NCBI GenBank assembly: GCA_025358395.1
Contig: JANYJT010000191.1
Span: forward strand, 1-17,530
DNA from: Bacteroidia bacterium
GTDB lineage: Bacteria > Bacteroidota > Bacteroidia > Bacteroidales > Prolixibacteraceae
DNA length: 17,530 nucleotides
Direction: 5' to 3'
This document shows positions 467-16,672 of this stretch, one piece after another. How positions within the stretch are numbered: position 1 is the first letter of the stretch; the number at the start of each line of letters is the position of its first letter. The notes below the pieces were generated by a model. The model was not told the origin of the DNA. It searched no databases and was given only the letters and a program-made list of their open reading frames with translations. The translations under genes were made by a program, and so were the position numbers.

Positions 467-3400
467 CTAAATTTTCCTCACGATTAAAACTGTTTCCAAC
501 CCTGGTTCTATTTCAACAAGCTGATCAACAGCCGATTCTGAAATATCGACCAATTTAAGCTTTTGAGCGAGTGTCTGTGCACAAATGTAATCTCCAAATT
601 TTGTCAACGCTTCTGCAAGTTCCGGATGGTTTCCAACAGTAAGCTCTATCTTGTCTGTCACCTCGAATCCGCTCTCTTTTCTGAGATTCTGAATCCTGTT
701 GATCAGTTCACGGGCGATCCCTTCCAGCTTCAACTCAGGCGAAACATGGATGTCGAGCGCGACAGTGAGGTTGCCCTCGCTGGCTACCTGCCATCCCGGG
801 ATATCTTCCGTAAGTATTTCCACATCTTCAGAAACCAGTCTGACCGGTTCCCCTTCGATGATCGTATCAACTGATCCCTCTCTTTCGAAAGCTGCTATCT
901 GAGCCTGATCCATCGCGGTTACCATGGCGGCAATCTGCTTCATCAGCTTGCTGTATTTGGGCCCAAGAGTCTTAAAGTTGGGTTTGATCTTCTTCCTGAT
1001 AATGCCGGAAGAGTCTGTCAGGTACTCAACCGCTTTAACGTTGACTTCTGTCAGGACGATGCTTTCTATCGCTTCAAACTGGTTTCGGAAACGCTCGCTT
1101 AACACCGGAACGATGATTCTGGCCAACGGCTGACGAACCTTGATTTTCTCCTTCCGGCGAAGGCCGAGTACCATGGAGGATGCTTTCTGCGCCAGTTCCA
1201 TTCGCTCTTCCAAGGCCTTGTCGACCAAACTATCGTCGGATACCGGAAATTTGGTGAGGTGAACGGATTGATCCACTTCCCTCCGGGTTACCTTGTTCAG
1301 GTCGCGGTAGAGCTGATCACTGTAAAATGGCGCGATGGGGGCAATCAGTTTGGCCACCGTTTCGAGTGTTATGTACAAGGTTTGGTATGCCGAAATCTTA
1401 TCCGCATCATATTCGCCACCCCAGAATCTTTTGCGACTCAGCCGCACGTACCAGTTTGAAAGATTTTCAGAGACAAATTCTGAAATGGTCCTGCCTGCCT
1501 TGGTGGGCTCATAAGTTTCGTAGGCTTCTGTCACATCTTTTACCAGGGTGTTCAGCAGTGAAAGGATCCAGCGGTCCGGTTCGGGCCGTTCGGAATTCCG
1601 GAGTTCAGCTTCCCGGTAGGTAAAGCCGTCCACATTGGCATACAGGGAGAAGAAACTGTAGGTATTGTAAAGCGTTCCGAAGAATTTGCGCCTAACTTCA
1701 TCCACCCCTGCCAGGTCAAATTTCAGGTTGTCCCACGGCTGGGAATTGGTGATCATATACCAGCGAACAGGATCGGAACCATACTTTTCGATGGTGGTGA
1801 AAGGATCCACGGCATTGCCCAGGCGCTTCGACATTTTGTTGCCGGCAGCATCCAGAACGAGTCCGTTGGAGATGATATTTTTAAAGGCCACAGTGCCTTT
1901 GGCCATGGTCGCGATGGCATGAAGGGTAAAGAACCAGCCTCTGGTCTGGTCGACACCTTCCGCGATAAAATCGGCGGGAAAGAGCGTGTCAAACTCCTCT
2001 TCGCGCTCAAATGGATAGTGAACCTGCGCGAAAGGCATGGCACCGGAGTCGAACCAGACGTCGATCAGGTCGAGCTCGCGAACCATTTTTACCCCTTTCG
2101 GGGAAACCAGTACAAGATCATCCACAAACGGTCGGTGAAGGTCTACCTTTTCGTAATTTTCTTTGGAGTTGTCGCCGGCAACGAAATCTTTGTAGGGATT
2201 TGCCGGCATAAAACCCGCAGCTACAGATTTCTCAATTTCTGCTACCAACTCTTCAACCGAGCCGATGCACAACTCTTCTGCACCATCTTCGGTGCGCCAG
2301 ATGGGCAGTGGAGTTCCCCAATATCTGGAGCGGGAGAGGTTCCAGTCGACCAGATTCTCGAGCCAGTTGCCAAAGCGCCCGGTCCCGGTAGATTGTGGTT
2401 TCCAGTTGATGGTTTTGTTGAGGTCGATCATCTGATCGCGGACGGCAGTCGATTTGATAAACCACGAATCAAGTGGATAGTACAGTACCGGTTTATCTGT
2501 CCTCCAGCAATGCGGATAGCTGTGTTCGTATTTTTCTACCCGGAAGGCTTTCCCGGCCAATTTCAGTGAAACGGATAAATCCACATCGAGGGTGGCATCG
2601 TTTTCGGTAAGCTTTTCGTCGTAACTGTTTTTGACAAAGCGACCCGCGAATTCTTTGTAGAGTTTCGCACTGACATGGTTTTTCACGAAATCCGCATCCA
2701 GATCCTCCACTCGGAAGAAGCGGCCCTGACGGTCGACCATCGGCTGGCGTTTTCCTTCGTTGTCGATCAGCAGCAGCGGTACAATGCCCGTCTGTTTGGC
2801 AACCCTGTCGTCGTCCGAACCGAAAGTCGGCGCGATGTGCACGATACCGGTACCATCTTCCGTGGTAACGAAATCGCCAGGGATGACCCTGAAAGCATCA
2901 CCCATCGGTTTCACCCAGGGGAAAAGCTGTTCGTAATTAACGCCCACCAGCTGACTCCCTGAGAATTCGCCGAGCAATTGATATGGAATGTTCTTCCCTT
3001 CGCCGGTAAAGCTATCCAGCGTTAGCGTCTCATTCTTCTCGGGGAAATAGTGTCGGAAAAGATTCCTGGCCAGAACGACCGTGATCGGCTGACCGGTATA
3101 AGGATTGAAAGTTTGAACTTTGACATATCTGATGGTTGCACCCACAGCCAGGGCAGTATTGGAAGGCAGCGTCCATGGAGTGGTCGTCCAGGCCAGGATG
3201 TAAAGATCGGTAGAAACCTGATCGAACAAAGGTGCCGATTTTTCATTTCTGATCACCTTGAATTGGGCGATGCAGGTGGTGTCTTTCACATTGCGGTAGC
3301 ATCCTGGTTGATTTAGCTCGTGCGAACTTAGTCCGGTGCCGGCAGCAGGCGAATAGGGCTGAATCGTATAACCTTTGTAGAGCAGATTTTTGTTGTAAAA

Positions 3401-3901
3401 GGATTTCAACAGCCACCACAAAGTCTCTATGTAGCGGTTGTCGTAGGTTATGTATGGATCGTCCATATTGACCCAGTAGCCCATTTTCCGGGTAAGATCC
3501 TCCCAGAGGTCGGTGTATTTCATCACCTCCCGGCGACAGGCAGCATTGTAATCGGCTACCGAGATATGTTTGCCGATATCCTCCTTCGTGATGCCGAGTG
3601 ACTTCTCCACACTAAGTTCGACAGGCAGTCCGTGGGTATCCCAGCCTGCCTTGCGCTTGACCAGAAATCCCTGCTGCGTCTTGTAACGACAAAATATATC
3701 CTTGATGGCGCGGGATACAACATGGTGAATTCCGGGTTGGCCATTGGCCGACGGCGGACCTTCATAAAAAATAAAAGGCTTTCCTTCGGCTCTGGTGGTG
3801 ATGGACTTGTTAAATGTATCATCCTCATCCCAGAATTTTAAGATATCCTTGTTAATTTGCGAAAGATTAAACTCCTTGTATTCCCTGAATTTCTTACTCA
3901 T
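467..3901 (-). CDS. ileS: Isoleucyl-tRNA synthetase (IleRS2-like, GIHH signature)
   Basis: This enzyme charges tRNA-Ile with isoleucine in the cytoplasm. I start it at the ATG of 3899-3901, giving 1144 residues. An in-frame ATG at 4021 would add 40 residues, but that stretch is encoded by an intergenic repeat (low-complexity KYFKYSKYSKY) and lies upstream of a good -7 box at 3934-3941. Visible landmarks are the class I HIGH-region signature at residues 57-60, reading GIHH in the context NGQPGIHHV; the editing-domain stretch TTTPWTLPSNTA; HIAPTFGSDDD; and KMSKR at residues 689-693, followed by the anticodon-binding region. Length and sequence style match the long, eukaryote-like IleRS2 type found in many Bacteroidota. 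The swapped signature (GxHH instead of HxGH) is discussed as a finding. The DksA-like gene follows on the same strand. Confidence 0.97.
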   Translation of the reverse strand: MSKKFREYKEFNLSQINKDILKFWDEDDTFNKSITTRAEGKPFIFYEGPPSANGQPGIHHVVSRAIKDIFCRYKTQQGFLVKRKAGWDTHGLPVELSVEKSLGITKEDIGKHISVADYNAACRREVMKYTDLWEDLTRKMGYWVNMDDPYITYDNRYIETLWWLLKSFYNKNLLYKGYTIQPYSPAAGTGLSSHELNQPGCYRNVKDTTCIAQFKVIRNEKSAPLFDQVSTDLYILAWTTTPWTLPSNTALAVGATIRYVKVQTFNPYTGQPITVVLARNLFRHYFPEKNETLTLDSFTGEGKNIPYQLLGEFSGSQLVGVNYEQLFPWVKPMGDAFRVIPGDFVTTEDGTGIVHIAPTFGSDDDRVAKQTGIVPLLLIDNEGKRQPMVDRQGRFFRVEDLDADFVKNHVSAKLYKEFAGRFVKNSYDEKLTENDATLDVDLSVSLKLAGKAFRVEKYEHSYPHCWRTDKPVLYYPLDSWFIKSTAVRDQMIDLNKTINWKPQSTGTGRFGNWLENLVDWNLSRSRYWGTPLPIWRTEDGAEELCIGSVEELVAEIEKSVAAGFMPANPYKDFVAGDNSKENYEKVDLHRPFVDDLVLVSPKGVKMVRELDLIDVWFDSGAMPFAQVHYPFEREEEFDTLFPADFIAEGVDQTRGWFFTLHAIATMAKGTVAFKNIISNGLVLDAAGNKMSKRLGNAVDPFTTIEKYGSDPVRWYMITNSQPWDNLKFDLAGVDEVRRKFFGTLYNTYSFFSLYANVDGFTYREAELRNSERPEPDRWILSLLNTLVKDVTEAYETYEPTKAGRTISEFVSENLSNWYVRLSRKRFWGGEYDADKISAYQTLYITLETVAKLIAPIAPFYSDQLYRDLNKVTRREVDQSVHLTKFPVSDDSLVDKALEERMELAQKASSMVLGLRRKEKIKVRQPLARIIVPVLSERFRNQFEAIESIVLTEVNVKAVEYLTDSSGIIRKKIKPNFKTLGPKYSKLMKQIAAMVTAMDQAQIAAFEREGSVDTIIEGEPVRLVSEDVEILTEDIPGWQVASEGNLTVALDIHVSPELKLEGIARELINRIQNLRKESGFEVTDKIELTVGNHPELAEALTKFGDYICAQTLAQKLKLVDISESAVDQLVEIEPGLETVLIVRKI

Positions 3902-3933
3902 AGCCTTGTGCAACTCCCTTTTTTTAAAGAGCA

Positions 3934-3941
3934 CAAAGATA
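3934..3941 (-). promoter_or_regulatory. ileS: -7 box of the ileS promoter (TATCTTTG)
   Basis: On the minus strand this reads TATCTTTG, an exact match to the Bacteroidota -7 consensus TAnnTTTG. It predicts a transcript start near 3928 and a leader of about 27 nt before the ATG at 3901. No TTG is found 19-21 bp upstream; that interval lies inside the 77-bp repeat (3949-4025). The box supports the shorter ileS start. Confidence 0.5.
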
Positions 3942-3948
3942 ATAAAAA

Positions 3949-4025
3949 AGTACTTGGAGTACTTAGAATACTTAAAGTACTTAAAGTTGGGAACTCCGAA
4001 CATATCAGCCAAATGGCACAAGTAA
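3949..4025 (-). repeat. 77-bp dispersed repeat, copy A (9-bp tandem core)
   Basis: The reverse complement of 3949-4025 matches 6896-6972 at 68 of 77 positions without gaps. The differences cluster in a 17-nt variable patch (repeat positions 7-23). The remaining 53-nt core differs at one position. Inside the core, a 9-bp unit of the type TACTTTAAG is repeated about three times with small changes. The copy ends 7 bp upstream of the ileS -7 box, so it occupies the place of the -33 element. It is read through by the longer, unlikely ileS start. The two copies are inverted relative to each other. Confidence 0.85.
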
Positions 4026-4048
4026 AATAAAGATCGGGTGTGTTTTAG

Positions 4049-4534
4049 TTACTTAACCAGGAAATGGTTAAATGGAATAGTTCTGGCTTCGTTACAATGG
4101 ATAGTAATCTTTTGGAATTTCTGACTGTAGGTTGATTCCATGAAAGTTAGCAATGTTTCTAAGTGTACCAATGCTCTCTTAAAGTGCTTGTCGTAAGTGA
4201 TATTGGCATCAATACTTCGATTTGACATGTTTTCACTTATTAAATACCTGGATCTTCTGGATAGATTTTGAAGTTGGGTATATGCTAAGTATACTTTTTC
4301 AGGAACTTTTGTGAGTGAAAGAATAAGATAAGGATTCAAGGCATTTGAAACCTCTTCGTGTTTGCGGTAATGTAAGTTCGAGACAGAAGCGATGTGTGAA
4401 TTGACAAGGTGAACAGCCACATAGTAACATACCGTTACATCCCAATCCCTATAATGCACTGATAAACTGCTAATTTCCTGCAAGAAGCTTAAGTTTTTCC
4501 TGGATTGGGAGATATGATCTGCAAAATTTGCCAT
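4049..4534 (-). CDS. HEPN-like helical protein, second gene of a coupled pair
   Basis: A 161-residue, largely helical protein. Residues 28-62 follow a pattern I associate with a HEPN-like family: RDW, then CYYVAVHLVNSHIA, then RKHEE, with a later AYTQLQNLSRRSRYL segment. The canonical HEPN RNase motif (R-x4-6-H) is not obvious; the nearest is R57-K-H59. I chose the ATG at 4532-4534 over an in-frame ATG at 4570 because it overlaps the upstream stop as TAATG, a classic re-initiation arrangement. The upstream partner (4534-5010) has a C-terminus resembling a degenerate nucleotidyltransferase-like or metal-free antitoxin fold. This suggests a toxin-antitoxin-like or regulatory pair. The gene is A+T-rich compared with ileS. 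The family assignment is pattern recognition, not a search result. Confidence 0.6.
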   Translation of the reverse strand: MANFADHISQSRKNLSFLQEISSLSVHYRDWDVTVCYYVAVHLVNSHIASVSNLHYRKHEEVSNALNPYLILSLTKVPEKVYLAYTQLQNLSRRSRYLISENMSNRSIDANITYDKHFKRALVHLETLLTFMESTYSQKFQKITIHCNEARTIPFNHFLVK

Positions 4535-5010
4535 TAAATGACCGTATTGAATTGAGAAGGAACTGAGCAATTGTCCGACTCTTCAAGGATGGTAGTTGAA
4601 ACATGGAATCCGTATTCACCATACTTTGCATTCAGGGTGGCTTCGAGTAAAAAAAGCTGATCCATGGTGGCTTCATCATCGTCCTTAACAACGGACCAAA
4701 CCAGAATTTTCGAGTCTGAAAGCTGAAATGATAACGATTTAAGTTCGATGTTACGTATTTTAAGGCCAGCAAAATAATTCGCCAAAAGATCAGGAATAAT
4801 TAACATACTGGAGCTTTCGCGGTTTTTACGTGCAATTTCAAGCATGTTGTTTTCCAAAAAAGGTTTCCAGAAATCCTGTTTTTCTTTTGGAGCAATTCCG
4901 GTAACTATTTGCATCTCTTCAACCCTAATTGAAGAAACAAGTTCATCGAACCATTTGGAAATATCAGCACTCTTTTCAGACAGCGTTGAGACCGGTGTTG
5001 CTGGAGTCAT
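4534..5010 (-). CDS. Hypothetical protein, partner of the HEPN-like gene
   Basis: A 158-residue soluble protein with no signal peptide or membrane segment. I do not recognise it with confidence. The C-terminal half contains a hydrophobic strand (KILVWSVV) followed by acidic residues (KDDDEAT), a helix (FLLEATLNAKYGEY), a second strand (GFHVSTTIL) and a serine/proline tail. That order resembles uncharacterised proteins found directly upstream of HEPN-like genes and could be a nucleotidyltransferase-like fold without obvious catalytic residues. The stop codon TAA shares its last A with the start ATG of the next gene, so the two are almost certainly translated together. A -7 box (5050-5057) and a palindrome (5059-5069) lie upstream, consistent with self-regulation. 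The gene is certain; the function is inference. Confidence 0.65.
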   Translation of the reverse strand: MTPATPVSTLSEKSADISKWFDELVSSIRVEEMQIVTGIAPKEKQDFWKPFLENNMLEIARKNRESSSMLIIPDLLANYFAGLKIRNIELKSLSFQLSDSKILVWSVVKDDDEATMDQLFLLEATLNAKYGEYGFHVSTTILEESDNCSVPSQFNTVI

Positions 5011-5049
5011 TTTGAAGGGTTGATTTCAGATTTAAAACAATAATCTATT

Positions 5050-5057
5050 CAAATTTA
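5050..5057 (-). promoter_or_regulatory. -7 box for the HEPN-like pair (TAAATTTG)
   Basis: The minus strand reads TAAATTTG, an exact TAnnTTTG match, 39 bp upstream of the start at 5010. No clear TTG lies at the expected distance upstream; the spacer holds the palindrome at 5059-5069 instead. This is the only strong -7 candidate I found in the 237-bp divergent intergenic region (5011-5247) for the leftward genes. Confidence 0.45.
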
Positions 5058-5058
5058 A

Positions 5059-5076
5059 CGTATTATACGGCGTATT
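5059..5076. promoter_or_regulatory. Candidate operator: CGTAT palindrome and repeated half-site
   Basis: Positions 5059-5069 read CGTATTATACG, a perfect 5-bp inverted repeat around one base. A further CGTATT half-site follows 12 bp after the first (5071-5076), so equivalent half-sites sit roughly one helical turn apart. The element touches the -7 box of the HEPN-like pair. A repressor bound here would block that promoter, as in self-regulated toxin-antitoxin units. This is inferred from position and symmetry only. Confidence 0.35.
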
Positions 5077-5192
5077 GTTCTAATGAATGCAAAATAAAGA
5101 AATAATAATAAGATTTAAAAGTTTTGGATCAGTAATTATATAGAAAGGCTGAATTCTCAAAAGTAGAATCTTAACTTTTAGCAAGTTTAGCC

Positions 5193-5224
5193 TTGCTTTT
5201 ATTCAAGGAACATCATTACATTTA
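5193..5224 (+). promoter_or_regulatory. Promoter-like pair upstream of the EEP gene relic
   Basis: TTG at 5193-5195 is followed after 21 bp by TACATTTA (5217-5224), one base from the Bacteroidota -7 consensus TAnnTTTG. The predicted start near 5230 would give an 18-nt leader before the ATG at 5248. It would transcribe the broken genes to the right. Confidence 0.4.
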
Positions 5225-5247
5225 CAGTACTAGCCAATTAGACAAAA

Positions 5248-5626
5248 ATGATGAGATTAATTACCTGGAACTGTCAAGGGGCATTTAGAAAGAAAGCTGA
5301 CTTCATTTTACCTCTTCAACCTGACATTTTAGTTGTCCAAGAATGTGAACATCCAGATAAATTAAATTTCAGTCAGACAAATAGGGAACCCCAAGATTAT
5401 TATTGGCATGGTGACAATGTAAATAAAGGAATAGGGATTTTTTCATATTCAGACTTTAAGTTTGAATTACTCACAGAATATAATCCGCAATTTAAATACA
5501 TACTCCCTTTAAAAGTTACTGGAAATGATTATTCATTTACTTTACTTGCAGTTTGGGCAATGAACTTATGATAACTGGACAGCCCATAGTGACCATTCCC
5601 CTCTTTATATTCAATTTGACATTTGA
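5248..5626 (+). pseudogene. Endonuclease/exonuclease/phosphatase (EEP) family gene with internal deletion
   Basis: The reading frame from 5248 to 5571 codes for 107 residues that begin like EEP-family phosphodiesterases: LITWNCQGAFRKKA, then the metal-binding glutamate in ILVVQECEHPD, then a GIGIFSY strand. It stops right after LLAVWA, far short of the 200-250 residues of the family. A different frame directly downstream (5564-5626) reads YDNWTAHSDHSPLYIQFDI and a stop, which is the family's C-terminal end with its catalytic S-D-H. The middle, probably around 90-100 residues including the catalytic Asp/Asn motifs, is absent, and the two ends are out of frame. The start and end of one gene are therefore both visible, with an internal deletion between them. 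An assembly error is possible. If expressed, the short product would lack most active-site residues. Confidence 0.75.
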
Positions 5627-5715
5627 TAATTGAAGTAAACGATTTGATAAGAACAATCTTTTACAGGACTTTGAAAATACGGAAAAATTGTAATGAATCA
5701 ACAAAACCGAGAAAA

Positions 5716-6006
5716 ATGGAACCAAAAGAATTGCCAAAATTTCATGAAACATTTCAACCGATCCTTGACATTTTAAAATCAGGAGATATTGTACACCACC
5801 GTGAGTTACTTAAAAAAGTTGTTGATAAATATTATTCGGATCTTCCGTTAGAATTGCTGGATCAAAAGACTAAAACCGGTGAAATCCTGATTTTAAACAG
5901 GATTGCTTGGGGAAAATCATATCTAAAAAAGGGCGGATACATAATTTATCCTGAAAGGGGAGTGGTTCAAATAACTGATAAGGGTAATGAACGAAACATT
6001 CGCTGA
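5716..6006 (+). CDS. Mrr-type N-terminal winged-helix fragment
   Basis: 96 residues matching the N-terminal winged-helix domain of Mrr-like restriction proteins: a proline-rich start with FHETFQPILDILKSGDIVHH, then KTGEILILNRIAWGKSYLKKGGYI, then the wing ending GVVQITDKGN. That domain binds DNA and is normally followed by a PD-(D/E)XK nuclease domain. Here the frame stops four residues after ITDKGN, while the next frame, overlapping by 20 bp, continues with a nuclease-like sequence. I used the ATG at 5716; the frame is open further upstream, but without family-like sequence. It may make a small stand-alone DNA-binding protein, but I think it is the head of a broken gene. It starts 89 bp after the EEP relic. 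Confidence 0.6.
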   Translation: MEPKELPKFHETFQPILDILKSGDIVHHRELLKKVVDKYYSDLPLELLDQKTKTGEILILNRIAWGKSYLKKGGYIIYPERGVVQITDKGNERNIR

Positions 6007-6349
6007 CATTGAATGTGAAAAAGATGGGATTAGGCATCTTATCAGTGTCAAGGCAAGAAACAAATACCAAAAAAACGGCAAATTAAACACAAGATACAAT
6101 CTGGGTTCTGAAGTTTATAAAAAAGCATTGTCTGCTGAGATAAAATATAATGGATCAGCCTATTGGATGGCATTACAATTTGATCGAAGGACATTTTCAA
6201 TATATTTTGGACGATTGACTGAATTAAATGGTAGTAGAGCAATTCCTGTTGACAAATGCGAGAAGGGAATGATCGGAGAGATTTGGGAACATAATAAGCG
6301 ACATTACTTTGATTTTGGGTTCTATACAAATCAAGAGAGTGAAATATAA
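5987..6349 (+). CDS. PD-(D/E)XK nuclease-like fragment (C-terminal part)
   Basis: 120 residues that look like the core and C-terminus of a PD-(D/E)XK superfamily protein: ADIECEKDG, then the strand LISVKARNKYQKNGKLNTRYNLG, later YWMALQFDRRTFSIYFG and a C-terminal WEHNKRHYFDFGFY. The usual acidic-x-K pair is S-V-K here, so catalysis is uncertain unless the family uses a displaced acid. The domain seems to lack its N-terminal helix and first strand. It overlaps the end of the winged-helix fragment in another frame, and its own frame is closed by a stop at 5972-5974. The simplest reading is one former winged-helix plus nuclease gene with a deletion that shifted the frame. A separate short gene is the alternative. 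Confidence 0.5.
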   Translation: MNETFADIECEKDGIRHLISVKARNKYQKNGKLNTRYNLGSEVYKKALSAEIKYNGSAYWMALQFDRRTFSIYFGRLTELNGSRAIPVDKCEKGMIGEIWEHNKRHYFDFGFYTNQESEI

Positions 6350-6808: not shown

Positions 6809-6812
6809 GAAG

Positions 6813-6820
6813 CAAAGTTA
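6813..6820 (-). promoter_or_regulatory. yhbP: -7 box of yhbP (TAACTTTG), nearly touching the start codon
   Basis: The minus strand reads TAACTTTG, an exact TAnnTTTG match, only 4 bp before the ATG at 6808. Transcription would begin at or next to the start codon, giving a leaderless message. The region 12 bp and more upstream is the 10-bp tandem array (6829-6895); there is no TTG at the -33 distance. Confidence 0.45.
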
Positions 6821-6828
6821 GGAAAAAG

Positions 6829-6895
6829 TGAACTAAAGTGAACTAAAGTGACTAGAGTGAACTAAAGTGACTAGAGTGAGCTAAAGTGACTAAAG
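6829..6895 (-). repeat. Tandem array of seven 9-10-bp units (TGAACTAAAG type)
   Basis: Seven consecutive units on the plus strand: TGAACTAAAG twice, TGACTAGAG, TGAACTAAAG, TGACTAGAG, TGAGCTAAAG, TGACTAAAG. The 10-bp and 9-bp forms partly alternate. In the direction of yhbP the units read CTTTAGTTCA. The last CTTTAG ends 12 bp before the yhbP -7 box. The array joins the 77-bp repeat copy B at 6896 with no gap. Confidence 0.9.
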
Positions 6896-6972
6896 TACTT
6901 GCGCCACCATCTTGATTTGTTCGGAGTTCACAACTTTAAGTACTTTAAGTATTCTAAGTACTCCAAGTACTT
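6896..6972 (+). repeat. 77-bp dispersed repeat, copy B
   Basis: Same length and 68 of 77 identical positions when compared with the reverse complement of 3949-4025. It carries the same 9-bp tandem core (TACTTTAAG, TATTCTAAG, TACTCCAAG). It lies against the 3' end of the LVIVD lipoprotein gene (stop at 6974) and has no -7 box on its downstream side, unlike copy A. An open frame across it would read the same low-complexity FKYSKYSKY peptide; I regard that as chance. Confidence 0.85.
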
Positions 6973-10331: not shown

Positions 10332-10369
10332 AATAATGTGCTAATGTGCTAATATGCTAATGTGCTAAT
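10332..10369 (+). repeat. Left arm of a perfect 38-bp inverted repeat
   Basis: This arm is the exact reverse complement of 10464-10501 (38 of 38). It is built of 8-bp units of the type TGCTAATG, four in a row from 10339. The arm lies 58 bp upstream of the serpin start. No mismatch-free extension is possible on either side. Confidence 0.95.
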
Positions 10370-10463
10370 GAATGAACGAGATAATTTTCAAATTTGTTGC
10401 ATTGATTCAATTATTGACAAATATTCGTTAGTTGTTCAATTATTAAATCGGTCACTTTTCATA
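10370..10463. other. 94-bp A+T-rich spacer between inverted-repeat arms
   Basis: There is no open frame of note. Neither strand has an exact TAnnTTTG with a matching TTG. The closest candidates are AATATTTG on the minus strand and CAAATTTG on the plus strand. The segment could be the loop of a long hairpin, or an invertible segment carrying a weak promoter. Confidence 0.4.
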
Positions 10464-10501
10464 ATTAGCACATTAGCATATTAGCACATTAGCACATTAT
10501 T
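10464..10501 (-). repeat. Right arm of a perfect 38-bp inverted repeat
   Basis: Perfect reverse complement of 10332-10369. The stop codon (TAA, 10497-10499) of the following lipoprotein gene lies inside the arm, so in the direction of that gene the 8-bp array begins at the stop. A transcript would fold into a stem of up to 38 bp here, which could end transcription or protect the 3' end. Confidence 0.95.
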
Positions 10502-11134: not shown

Positions 11135-12376
11135 TCAGAAGGAAATTTTGAAGTTAATCCCGGAGGTAGTGTGGTTCAAGCTTCCAGGGGCCTGAACGGA
11201 AGTTGGAATTTTTGTATATGGTTCGAAATGGATAAACAATTTGTCCGTCAACTTTCTTTCAAACCCAACCATGAGATTGATTCGACCTCCGGGATCGAAT
11301 GTTTGGTTTGGAGTAACTGTATTTTGGGTTACAGATACCTGACTGACAACATCATATGTTTTTACGTCACTACCTCCGACTTTTAAAGTGATGGGGACAA
11401 GCAGGTTGGAATATTTCTTATCTTCATTCGCCTGGCTTAGATAGATCAGTGAAGACACTCCTGCTGAGAGGTACCATGAACTTGATTTGACTGAAAAAAA
11501 CTTCCAGATAATATTCAGGGGTATATCGAGATTAACCAGCGTTGACTTTGTTTCATCCTGAGGTGCTGATGTAGAAGAAACTATTCCCGCTATTTTTTGA
11601 TCCATATGCTGATTTTGAACCTGCAGTCCCGTTGACAACTGGAATTTGGATGACAAAGTGATATCGGCGCTGACACCTCCTGTATAATCCATTGAACCTG
11701 CTGACTGTGCAGAGTTTACTCCGGGAGAGAAATTGATTCCAAAACGAACCTTACGCCCCGGAACTGAGGCAATATGCTGATTCTCTTTATTTACCGTCAG
11801 TGTACGGAAAGTATCAGATTGTTTTCTTTTGATCGTATCTGAACTGTTTTTTACACTATCAGCATTATTTTTATTCTGCCGGAGCGAATTGCCGGCAGCA
11901 AAGAGGGAGATATTTTTAGCGGAGTCAGCCGCAACATCCGAATTCTTCTGATAACCGGTTGCTTTATTACCTACTTCCGCAATTGAATATTCCTTCTTAC
12001 CAGGATTGGTTTTCGACACAGTTCCTTTTGAATCTTCGGTATTGACAGAAGATTTAAGGGACGAAACCAATGGGACCGGCTTTTCTATGGATTTATTTTC
12101 GACGCCCGGAGTTTCCGTGACAATTGGGACTGGTTGATGTGCCACTGAATTTTGAATCTCTCTCTTTTCATAATGGATATAATGAATACCCAAAAATCCT
12201 ATCATAAGACATGCAGCGACACCGGAAGCTATCCGCAGGAAAAGCCTTCTTTTGCCTGCCGCTCTTTTGTGCACAAAACCCTCCCAGGAGCCCGGGATAT
12301 ATGCCTCTTCGTGATTTTCCAGAGACTGCTTTATCTGAGCAAATATTTCGCTTTCAGTAGTTTCTTTGTTCTTCAT
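11135..12376 (-). CDS. Anti-sigma-like membrane protein fused to an outer-membrane barrel domain
   Basis: 413 residues. Residues 1-46 are cytoplasmic in style (SEIFAQIKQSLENHEEAYIPGSWEGF), and residues 48-68 form one membrane segment (IASGVAACLMIGFLGIHYI). A long Ser/Lys/Asn-rich periplasmic linker runs to about residue 205. The C-terminal 200 residues look like an outer-membrane beta-barrel (VRFGINFSPGVNS, LQLSTGLQVQNQ-type strands, final SGINFKISF). This layout is common in Bacteroidota next to ECF sigma genes. The start ATG overlaps the sigma stop as ATGA (12373-12376), so translation is coupled. The likely role is to hold the sigma factor at the inner membrane and release it on an envelope signal. 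Whether one chain can span both membranes or is processed cannot be told from sequence. Confidence 0.75.
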   Translation of the reverse strand: MKNKETTESEIFAQIKQSLENHEEAYIPGSWEGFVHKRAAGKRRLFLRIASGVAACLMIGFLGIHYIHYEKREIQNSVAHQPVPIVTETPGVENKSIEKPVPLVSSLKSSVNTEDSKGTVSKTNPGKKEYSIAEVGNKATGYQKNSDVAADSAKNISLFAAGNSLRQNKNNADSVKNSSDTIKRKQSDTFRTLTVNKENQHIASVPGRKVRFGINFSPGVNSAQSAGSMDYTGGVSADITLSSKFQLSTGLQVQNQHMDQKIAGIVSSTSAPQDETKSTLVNLDIPLNIIWKFFSVKSSSWYLSAGVSSLIYLSQANEDKKYSNLLVPITLKVGGSDVKTYDVVSQVSVTQNTVTPNQTFDPGGRINLMVGFERKLTDKLFIHFEPYTKIPTSVQAPGSLNHTTSGINFKISF

Positions 12377-12924
12377 TCCTGTAAATATTTAACCGGAAAC
12401 AGCTCTCGCAGTTGTTTCTTGGCTCGTGTTAAATAGACTCTCGATGAACTGACCGGAATTCCAAGTTGTTCAGCGATCTCTTCATGACTGTATCCTTCAA
12501 TTTCGAAAAGGCAGAATACAGTTTTATGGTAATGCGGCAACAGATTCAGAATTTTAAGGATATCCTGAGTTGCCAGGAGGCTTATCGCATTGGGTGTTTC
12601 GTCCTGAACCGGATAATGTTCAGGTTCAACAAAAAGGTGATTCTTCTTATTTTTTCTTAAATGATCGATGGAGGTATTGATCACAATCCGACGCAACCAT
12701 CCCTGGAATGGTTTTGATGCATCATATTTCCCGATTTTGGAAAATACTTTGACAAAACTATCATCCACAACCTCAAGCGCATCGCGGCGCTGACGGTTAT
12801 AAATCAATGCAACACTTAAGGCATATCCAAAGAATTTCTTGTAAAGGAGTTCCTGAAATTTTTCTTTCTTTTTGATACATCCCTGCACAATGAATTCTAA
12901 GTTCTCCTCATTTTTTCTTTCCAA
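12373..12924 (-). CDS. ECF-type RNA polymerase sigma factor
   Basis: 183 residues with the two ECF regions. Sigma-2 is seen in YKKFFGYALSVALIYNR, then EVVDDSFVKVFSKIGKYD and FQGWLRRIVINTSIDHLRK. Sigma-4 is seen in ILNLLPHYHKTVFCLFEIEG, then YSHEEIAEQLGIPVSSSRVYLTRAKKQLRELF. The start is unusual: the only codon giving a full N-terminus is TTG at 12922-12924, with no ATG in frame upstream before a stop. It follows the lipoprotein gene by 40 bp and overlaps the anti-sigma gene by 4 bp, so lipoprotein, sigma and anti-sigma form one unit. It probably recognises the bipartite signals at 11040-11069 and 13542-13571, which would make it self-activating. The physiological signal is unknown. Confidence 0.9.
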   Translation of the reverse strand: MERKNEENLEFIVQGCIKKKEKFQELLYKKFFGYALSVALIYNRQRRDALEVVDDSFVKVFSKIGKYDASKPFQGWLRRIVINTSIDHLRKNKKNHLFVEPEHYPVQDETPNAISLLATQDILKILNLLPHYHKTVFCLFEIEGYSHEEIAEQLGIPVSSSRVYLTRAKKQLRELFPVKYLQE

Positions 12925-16593: not shown

Positions 16594-16598
16594 GCTTA

Positions 16599-16606
16599 CA
16601 AATGTA
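16599..16606 (-). promoter_or_regulatory. dnaG: -7 box of dnaG (TACATTTG), nearly touching the start codon
   Basis: The minus strand reads TACATTTG, an exact consensus match, 5 bp before the dnaG ATG. This would make a leaderless or almost leaderless message. The -33 region falls inside the 8-bp tandem array, where TTAG units lie 12 and 20 bp upstream of the box. Confidence 0.5.
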
Positions 16607-16616
16607 GTAAGGAATG

Positions 16617-16672
16617 TGCTAATGTGCTAATTTGCCAATATGCTAATGTGCCAATATGCTAATGTGCTGATA
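16617..16672 (-). repeat. Tandem array of seven 8-bp units (TGCTAATG type)
   Basis: On the plus strand seven consecutive units read TGCTAATG, TGCTAATT, TGCCAATA, TGCTAATG, TGCCAATA, TGCTAATG, TGCTGATA. In the dnaG direction the unit reads CACATTAG or a variant. The unit is the same as in the 38-bp inverted repeat near 10332-10501. No inverted partner is found within the next 90 bp. The unit length, and the lack of longer repeats with unique spacers, rule out CRISPR. Confidence 0.9.

Follow-up and report, generated by a model that had tools for sequence, protein, structure and literature searches.

The closest known kinds of sequence to the arrays described below are, as far as the cited parts of the published accounts go, the cyanobacterial STRRs, the TAACTGA repeats, the BrickBuilt element and the REP elements. 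STRRs are arrays, usually of 7-bp repeats, which are intergenic and capable of forming hairpins, one of them lying close to the 3' terminus of the gene upstream, and in the part of the source cited their function is given as not known (PMC2670836). Many-copy intergenic arrays built of degenerate 7-bp units occur here as well (TTTATCC in the sister genome G001), but the units in these Bacteroidota range from 7 to 10 bp, a fixed core is flanked by inverted arms in one family, and some of the arrays reach a TAnnTTTG box. The TAACTGA direct repeats (MacGregor 2015) are intergenic heptamer arrays found in Beggiatoaceae, Cyanobacteria and five Bacteroidetes, and some of the Bacteroidetes regions also carry other heptamer arrays which are absent from close relatives (PMC4679880, in the sections cited). 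That system, by the same sections, uses a single word, located for the most part directly ahead of start codons and with a proposed translational role, whereas here there are many words, at stop codons or upstream of a -7 box. BrickBuilt, a MITE of Porphyromonas gingivalis, is an intergenic multi-copy element of the Bacteroidota with tandem repeats and inverted ends (PMC4596501, cited in part). The present element is likewise dispersed, multi-copy and bounded by inverted ends, but BrickBuilt in that description is one array of 23-nt units with a leader and a tail, whereas here the two inverted arms on either side of the core are each made of short-unit arrays. REP elements are placed after stop codons. 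They are many-copy, extragenic, GTAG/CGTC-tagged palindromes, for which the passages cited put forward hypothetical roles in supercoiling, termination or mRNA stabilisation (PMC3733652). They differ, on that account, from the element found here, in which the arms are tandem arrays, the total length is ~150 nt and no Y1 transposase was found beside the copies (30 Y1 loci). No description of this element was found in the literature searched, which included searches on intergenic tandem repeats of Prolixibacteraceae.

We analysed a window of 17,530 nucleotides (the whole stretch of DNA, to which all coordinates refer) together with eight congeneric genomes, G001 to G008. We lean towards the view that the 9-bp array upstream of ileS forms the right arm of a ~150-nt interspersed element belonging to this genus, a gene-end element resembling REPs and STRRs, and is not a sequence-specific -33 element.

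The ileS array and a dispersed element family

Table 1. Genes, boxes, arrays and element copies located in the window
Feature	Position	Strand	Evidence or remarks
ileS	467-3901	minus	ATG at 3901; tRNA-synt_1, E 6e-116
-7 box TATCTTTG of ileS	3941-3934	minus	exact TAnnTTTG; same eight letters in 8/8 congeners
9-bp tandem array, AAGTACTTT-like units	3949-3987	minus	TRF: 4.3 copies, 86% matches, score 50
41-nt arm at ileS (right arm of dispersed element)	3948-3988	minus	arm matching
77-nt half element at ileS (core and right arm)	3948-4024	minus	alignment to element family; 88% with 6896-6972
-7 box TAACTTTG of yhbP	6820-6813	minus	4 nt ahead of ATG (6808)
Left arm of complete copy, AAAGTGAACT units, beside yhbP promoter	6825-6896		TRF 10/19-bp array
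Complete element copy	6825-6972	plus	left arm 6825-6896, core ~6892-6931, right arm 6932-6972
8-bp array, promoter-side arm upstream of serpin gene	10334-10370	minus	TRF, repeat search
8-bp array covering stop codon of 172-aa gene	10464-10499	minus	TRF, repeat search
-7 box TACATTTG of dnaG	16606-16599	minus	5 nt ahead of ATG (16593)
dnaG 8-bp array, TTAGCACA units, single arm, separate word family	16613-16668	minus	TRF 8/16-bp; 0/1000 shuffles as good

The closest IleS (88%) is that of a MAG named 'Bacteroidia bacterium' (L001, genome G001), and the next, from Prolixibacteraceae, is at ~70%. The ileS start at 3901 is conserved among the congeners, and the matches of most relatives begin at residue 1-4. 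A longer ileS ORF reaching to 4021 was rejected as a spurious read-through of the array because the matches of relatives begin at the ATG at 3901 and the extension is missing from them, and for the same reasons (start conserved, extension missing in relatives) we dropped a coding explanation in which the array would be in frame with ileS. This spurious extension is a warning against gene calls which translate such arrays.

Upstream of ileS, on the minus strand, stands TTTTTTAT-TATCTTTG, with the 9-bp array terminating at the T-run and stopping 7 bp ahead of the box. The distances given in the first-pass annotation are correct as it defined them, the 'CAAG' end lying 11 bp before the box at ileS and the 'TTAG' end 12 bp before it at both yhbP and dnaG. 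All three arrays are real, being detected by TRF, and 200 dinucleotide-shuffled versions of the window gave 0 arrays of period 6-11 with a score of >=50 (compared with 19 at a score of >=40). The view that they are non-random also held good. They lie directly upstream of a box conserved in the genus, and unrelated arrays recur at the ileS slot of congeners. Scans of the window for Rfam families (at the gathering threshold) and tRNAs gave no match.

Three features had been overlooked in that annotation, namely that the 77-nt unit at ileS recurs in inverted orientation at 6896-6972, that the arm in this second copy leads to a stop codon and not to a box, and that the two arrays at 10334-10370 and 10464-10499 form an inverted pair. 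The window therefore holds one full copy of the element (6825-6972) and one half copy, at ileS, of which the left arm is degenerate or missing upstream. The second copy of the 41-nt arm, which is the right arm of 6825-6972, has no TAnnTTTG box after it and adjoins the stop codon of an LVIVD-repeat gene at 8290-6974. The plan of the element is a pair of inverted arrays of 9-10-bp units flanking a ~40-nt core, ~150 nt in total, and the core would be close to ACTTGCGCCACAATCTTGATTTGTTCGGAGTTCCCAAC. This plan is shared by 20 distinct core hits, with inverted 9-10-bp arrays (AAAGTGCCT, AAAGTGAACT, AAAGTGACT, AAAGTACTT) and a core near AAAGTACTTGCGCCACAATCTTGATTTGTTCGGAGTTCCCAAC; the weakest of these hits has an E of 0.12 and the loci were mostly fetched because they were element-like. 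A search with the complete element matched 7/8 congeneric genomes, with 24-65 matches each and 0 in G002 (the best 40 candidates were scored in six genomes, and several matches are possible per element), and across the family at least 18 of 140 genomes matched when the best 6 candidates per genome were scored. There was a single core hit in 1.058 Mb of G001, and most arrays of that genome are therefore without a recognisable core; the word TTTATCC gave 99 overlapping pattern matches in G001 and the reversed pattern 0.

Mobilisation by a RAYT was considered and rejected, as no transposase could be tied to the family: there were 36 matches to the Y1 transposase (PF01797) in 8 genomes, and the element core was present in 0/30 fetched Y1-transposase loci (flanks up to 1.5 kb), 8/30 of which carry some tandem array. 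Viral contigs (searched with a 28-base array word), phages and plasmids gave no match by blastn.

The two copies of the 41-nt arm in the window are identical, as are the two copies in G006, and the species differ at one base, suggesting, from this one diagnostic site, that copies of the element may evolve in concert. Unit number is unchanged between the window and G006, whose ileS genes are 91% identical. Of the 8 congeners, only G006 and G003 have yhbP on the strand opposite ileS, and in G006 the flipped yhbP segment lies between two elements, an arrangement which fits recombination between inverted copies. We infer from the identical arms and this flipped segment that copies are homogenised and recombined within a genome, and that the elements are probably able to mediate inversion.

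The spacing of these two genes also varies, the gap between their matches being <0.2 kb in six congeners, of which G003 and G006 have the flipped arrangement, and ~0.8 kb in the other two, G005 and G007. In the window ~2.3 kb of orphan ORFs separate yhbP and ileS at 4049-6349, two of which were searched with no Pfam match, and this stretch looks like an insertion in the slot.

Promoter boxes, array distances and the -33 region

The consensus of the Bacteroidota -33 element is TTG/TTTG. That of the -7 box, TAnnTTTG, is stated for flavobacteria in the part of the source cited (PMC9723704). The arrays at ileS, yhbP and dnaG had been taken as evidence for a preferred distance between array and box, and we scanned array-box distances in 1.058 Mb (25%) of the sister genome G001. 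An array lay within 120 bp of 15/203 candidate boxes, against ~1 expected from mononucleotide shuffles, and they were spread over 4-11 bp (3 boxes) and 20-120 bp (12 boxes). In a smaller sample, made up of 788 kb of G001 and the 17.5-kb window, boxes within ~82 bp of 121 intergenic arrays pointed away from the array more often than toward it (26 vs 13; near the 68 arrays scoring >=45, 17 vs 3). Among the 26 boxes pointing away, 7 were at 4-11 bp, a local excess to which the window itself contributed 3. A subset of arrays thus adjoins boxes, but there is no single preferred distance, and the general claim of the first-pass annotation, which by its own account stood or fell with such a distance, therefore fails.

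Three roles had been suggested for the arrays, that they replace the -33 element, that they offer several alternative -33-like boxes, or that they change expression through copy number. Replacement as a general mechanism was unsupported. A TTG or TTTG 19-20 bp above TAnnTTTG was found in 0/8 ileS and 0/8 dnaG promoters, with or without an array (the ileS set for this and the following count comprised 8 promoters, G002 being left out). The second proposal, in which units ending in TAAG or TTAG ~20 bp upstream of TAnnTTTG would act as alternative boxes, draws on a weak -33 signal in the lineage, as TTG ends 19-20 bp above 24/168 boxes in G001 against a background of ~3 per position, and on T[AT]AG occurring at 20-21 bp in 4/8 ileS promoters, all of the AGT type (window, G003, G005 and G006), and in 1/8 dnaG promoters, that of the window. 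However, a period of ~9 would by arithmetic bring about one third of arrays to a spacing of 19-21 by chance, the TTTATCC arrays at ileS (G001, G004 and G008) contain neither T[AT]AG nor TTG, T[AT]AG is absent from the other 7/8 dnaG promoters, and the spacings at the window yhbP promoter are 12 and 22. We therefore regard it as very unlikely that the units serve as alternative -33-like boxes, but at the window ileS promoter specifically TAAG-N20-TATCTTTG may be a weak -33. Copy-number switching gained no support from the sister genome G006, where unit number is the same and 40/41 nt are identical to the window arm.

Some of the boxes lie unusually near the coding sequence: those at 16594-16606 (dnaG, in the window and 7 congeners) and 6809-6820 (window yhbP) are 4-5 nt before the ATG, which suggests that the dnaG mRNA and the window yhbP mRNA are leaderless or nearly so. 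The layout of the dnaG box is common to 7 congeners, G003 giving no dnaG match. A different motif, TGTAGCG...CGTAT, is found on the minus strand upstream of 11015 and 13510, at a 172-aa gene (window and 5 congeners) and a 181-aa gene (window and 6 congeners); a sigma factor gene (Sigma70_r2/r4) at 12373-12918 is nearby, and the sites are probably its target promoters.

Turnover of array words at orthologous promoters

The ileS slot is filled by AAGTACTTT in the window and G006, by AGTCACTTT in G003 and G005 and by TTTATCC in G001, G004 and G008, while G007 has no array and G002 a distal CTCCGGT-like tract (P 0.068), and all of these slots sit above an identical TATCTTTG box. The tandem signal upstream of ileS was significant in 7/9 sequences (window and 8 congeners; P<=0.01), with three word families, and that upstream of dnaG in 7/8 (window and congeners without G003; P<=0.04), where the words include TTAGCACA, CCGTTTC and TGCCCTC and differ between the sister species represented by the window and G006. 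The dnaG promoter of G001 appeared repetitive by eye, yet was not significant (P 0.715), and the neighbouring dksA promoter gave a tandem signal in 0/7. The distance from array end to box was 5-8 nt in five and 19-20 nt in two of the seven significant ileS arrays, and ranged from 6 to 74 nt in the seven significant dnaG arrays. Among 80 ileS loci there were 49 arrays, of which 10 (in 6 loci) lay <=300 nt upstream of ileS, and two other Bacteroidales have unrelated arrays ending at the T-run and TATCTTTG box of this gene (CAGGACTG in L046, upstream of 3598, and TTGAGCC in L063, upstream of 133). A tree based on ileS (first 935 nt) had no supported fork. At the yhbP slot, G004 (L204) has a palindromic repeat, CGACAGATTGCTTC...GAAGCAATCTGTCG, instead of an array, and a degenerate form of it is found in G007 (L206).

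Such a succession of words could mean that composition, not sequence, is what is kept above the -7 box, a pyrimidine-rich, T-ended tract acting as an upstream element and tandem words being a quick way to build it. The 80 nt above the dnaG box are indeed 72-90% pyrimidine in 7/8 promoters with different words, and the ileS upstream regions are 59-71% pyrimidine in 8/8, compared with an average of 50% over the shorter stretch from -50 to -10 for array-free G001 boxes. The window dnaG tract, however, is 57% pyrimidine, G001 boxes with arrays average only 56%, and 188/203 G001 candidate boxes have no array, so that we consider a composition-type element highly improbable. The dnaG pyrimidine tracts (7/8) mostly do not fold, 7/8 tracts being unstructured.

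A broader reading, which we consider a rather doubtful one, is that some housekeeping promoters carry, as their upstream half, a sequence-free cassette which many words can fill and sister species can swap, what is kept being an array, the T-run, TAnnTTTG and, at dnaG, a near-leaderless start. The composition or structure of the tract would then set promoter strength, in place of a -33 sequence, and inverted copies would serve as sites of recombination at which gene segments are flipped.

Gene ends, hairpins and possible function

In 1.058 Mb of G001, a sample which is 91% coding, 85/103 arrays (score >=50) were intergenic and 9 were inside ORFs; these numbers are estimates and array densities are biased upward, because the sampled contigs had all been identified through an array-word hit and genes were called by a simple longest-ORF rule. 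Array edges facing a stop codon fell within -20 to +10 nt of it in 41/91 cases, compared with 6/79 start-facing edges at start codons. Direct arrays were present in 39/283 tandem, 6/51 convergent and 4/92 divergent intergenic regions, that is in 45/334 stop-containing regions vs 4/92 divergent ones (P 0.015). Inverted self-matches were not significantly rarer in divergent regions (11/92 vs 65/334, P 0.12); they occurred in 76/426 intergenic regions vs 5/426 in shuffles, many of them being ordinary short hairpins, and at a threshold of 14 in 30/64 array-bearing regions vs 74/362 array-free ones. The inverted arms showed no significant purine/pyrimidine polarity along transcription (26 vs 20).

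A 55-nt segment which includes the window ileS array folds into a 14-bp hairpin with U6 behind it (z -3.92, 1/200 shuffles as good), and with more flank z is -2.37; a strict terminator scan of 3850-4150 gave 0 hits. When 150 nt above the box were folded (60 shuffles each), the ileS slot folded better than shuffles in the window (z -3.5), G001 (-2.5), G004 (-4.5), G008 (-7.1) and G005 (-6.1), weakly in G006 (-1.8) and G003 (-1.2), and not at all in G007 (+1.3) and G002 (+0.6). Structures at the yhbP slot were a short palindrome in G001 (z -6.2), a long palindrome in G004 (-5.1) and array pairs in G008 (-8.7) and G005 (-5.5), with z values of -2.4 in G002, -1.7 in the window and -0.5 in G007. 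Termination at ileS and yhbP is therefore plausible on the predicted folds. The dnaG arrays were unstructured in 7/8 cases (window z -0.19; the exception was G007, z -3.5) and hence are unexplained by gene-end hairpins. In the genome-wide sample of G001, T-runs after array ends were not commoner than A-runs (27 vs 29 of 91), and the excess of T-tails in the core family (13 vs 0 of 46 sides) is to some extent inherent, since TT comes next in the unit itself and in some arrays the edge finder halted short of the array end.

These observations must also be weighed against a neutral origin, in which the arrays are functionless repeats driven by slippage and conversion and accumulate where insertion is harmless (after stops, and upstream of promoters needing no -33), with the T-run and -7 box marking the limit set by purifying selection. 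The lack of a single preferred box distance, the scarcity of direct arrays in divergent regions, the unrelated words at one slot, the lack of a genome-wide U-tract and the absence of TTG at 19-20 even from the array-free G007 ileS promoter all accord with it. Plain slippage alone, however, gives no inverted partners, whereas inverted self-matches were found in nearly half of the array-bearing regions as counted above, and at several ileS and yhbP slots the folding is far stronger than that of shuffled sequences. A neutral origin thus seems to us possible, if on the unlikely side.

Under the reading which we prefer, of a dispersed gene-end element, such elements and arrays of other words would come to lie in the space from a stop codon to the core promoter that follows, extending as far as the T-run and -7 box without crossing them, and selection presumably protects this T-run and box. 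At ileS the RNA of the arm could fold into a hairpin with UUUUUU behind it, immediately above the box. The likeliest function, if there is any, would be that of a gene-end hairpin, terminating the upstream transcript or protecting its 3' end and joined to the promoter that follows, and the ileS array is probably such a hairpin or filler rather than a sequence-specific promoter element.

The present case is a warning against reading arrays of this kind as regulatory motifs from a single genome. Should the cassette reading be true, promoter strength would depend on the composition or structure of the tract and not on a -33 sequence. In orthologous housekeeping promoters of one genus, the upstream DNA has been overwritten by unrelated arrays while the -7 box was kept; whether a -33 sequence is needed in these promoters thereby becomes testable, as does the spread and homogenisation of short tandem words in bacterial genomes.
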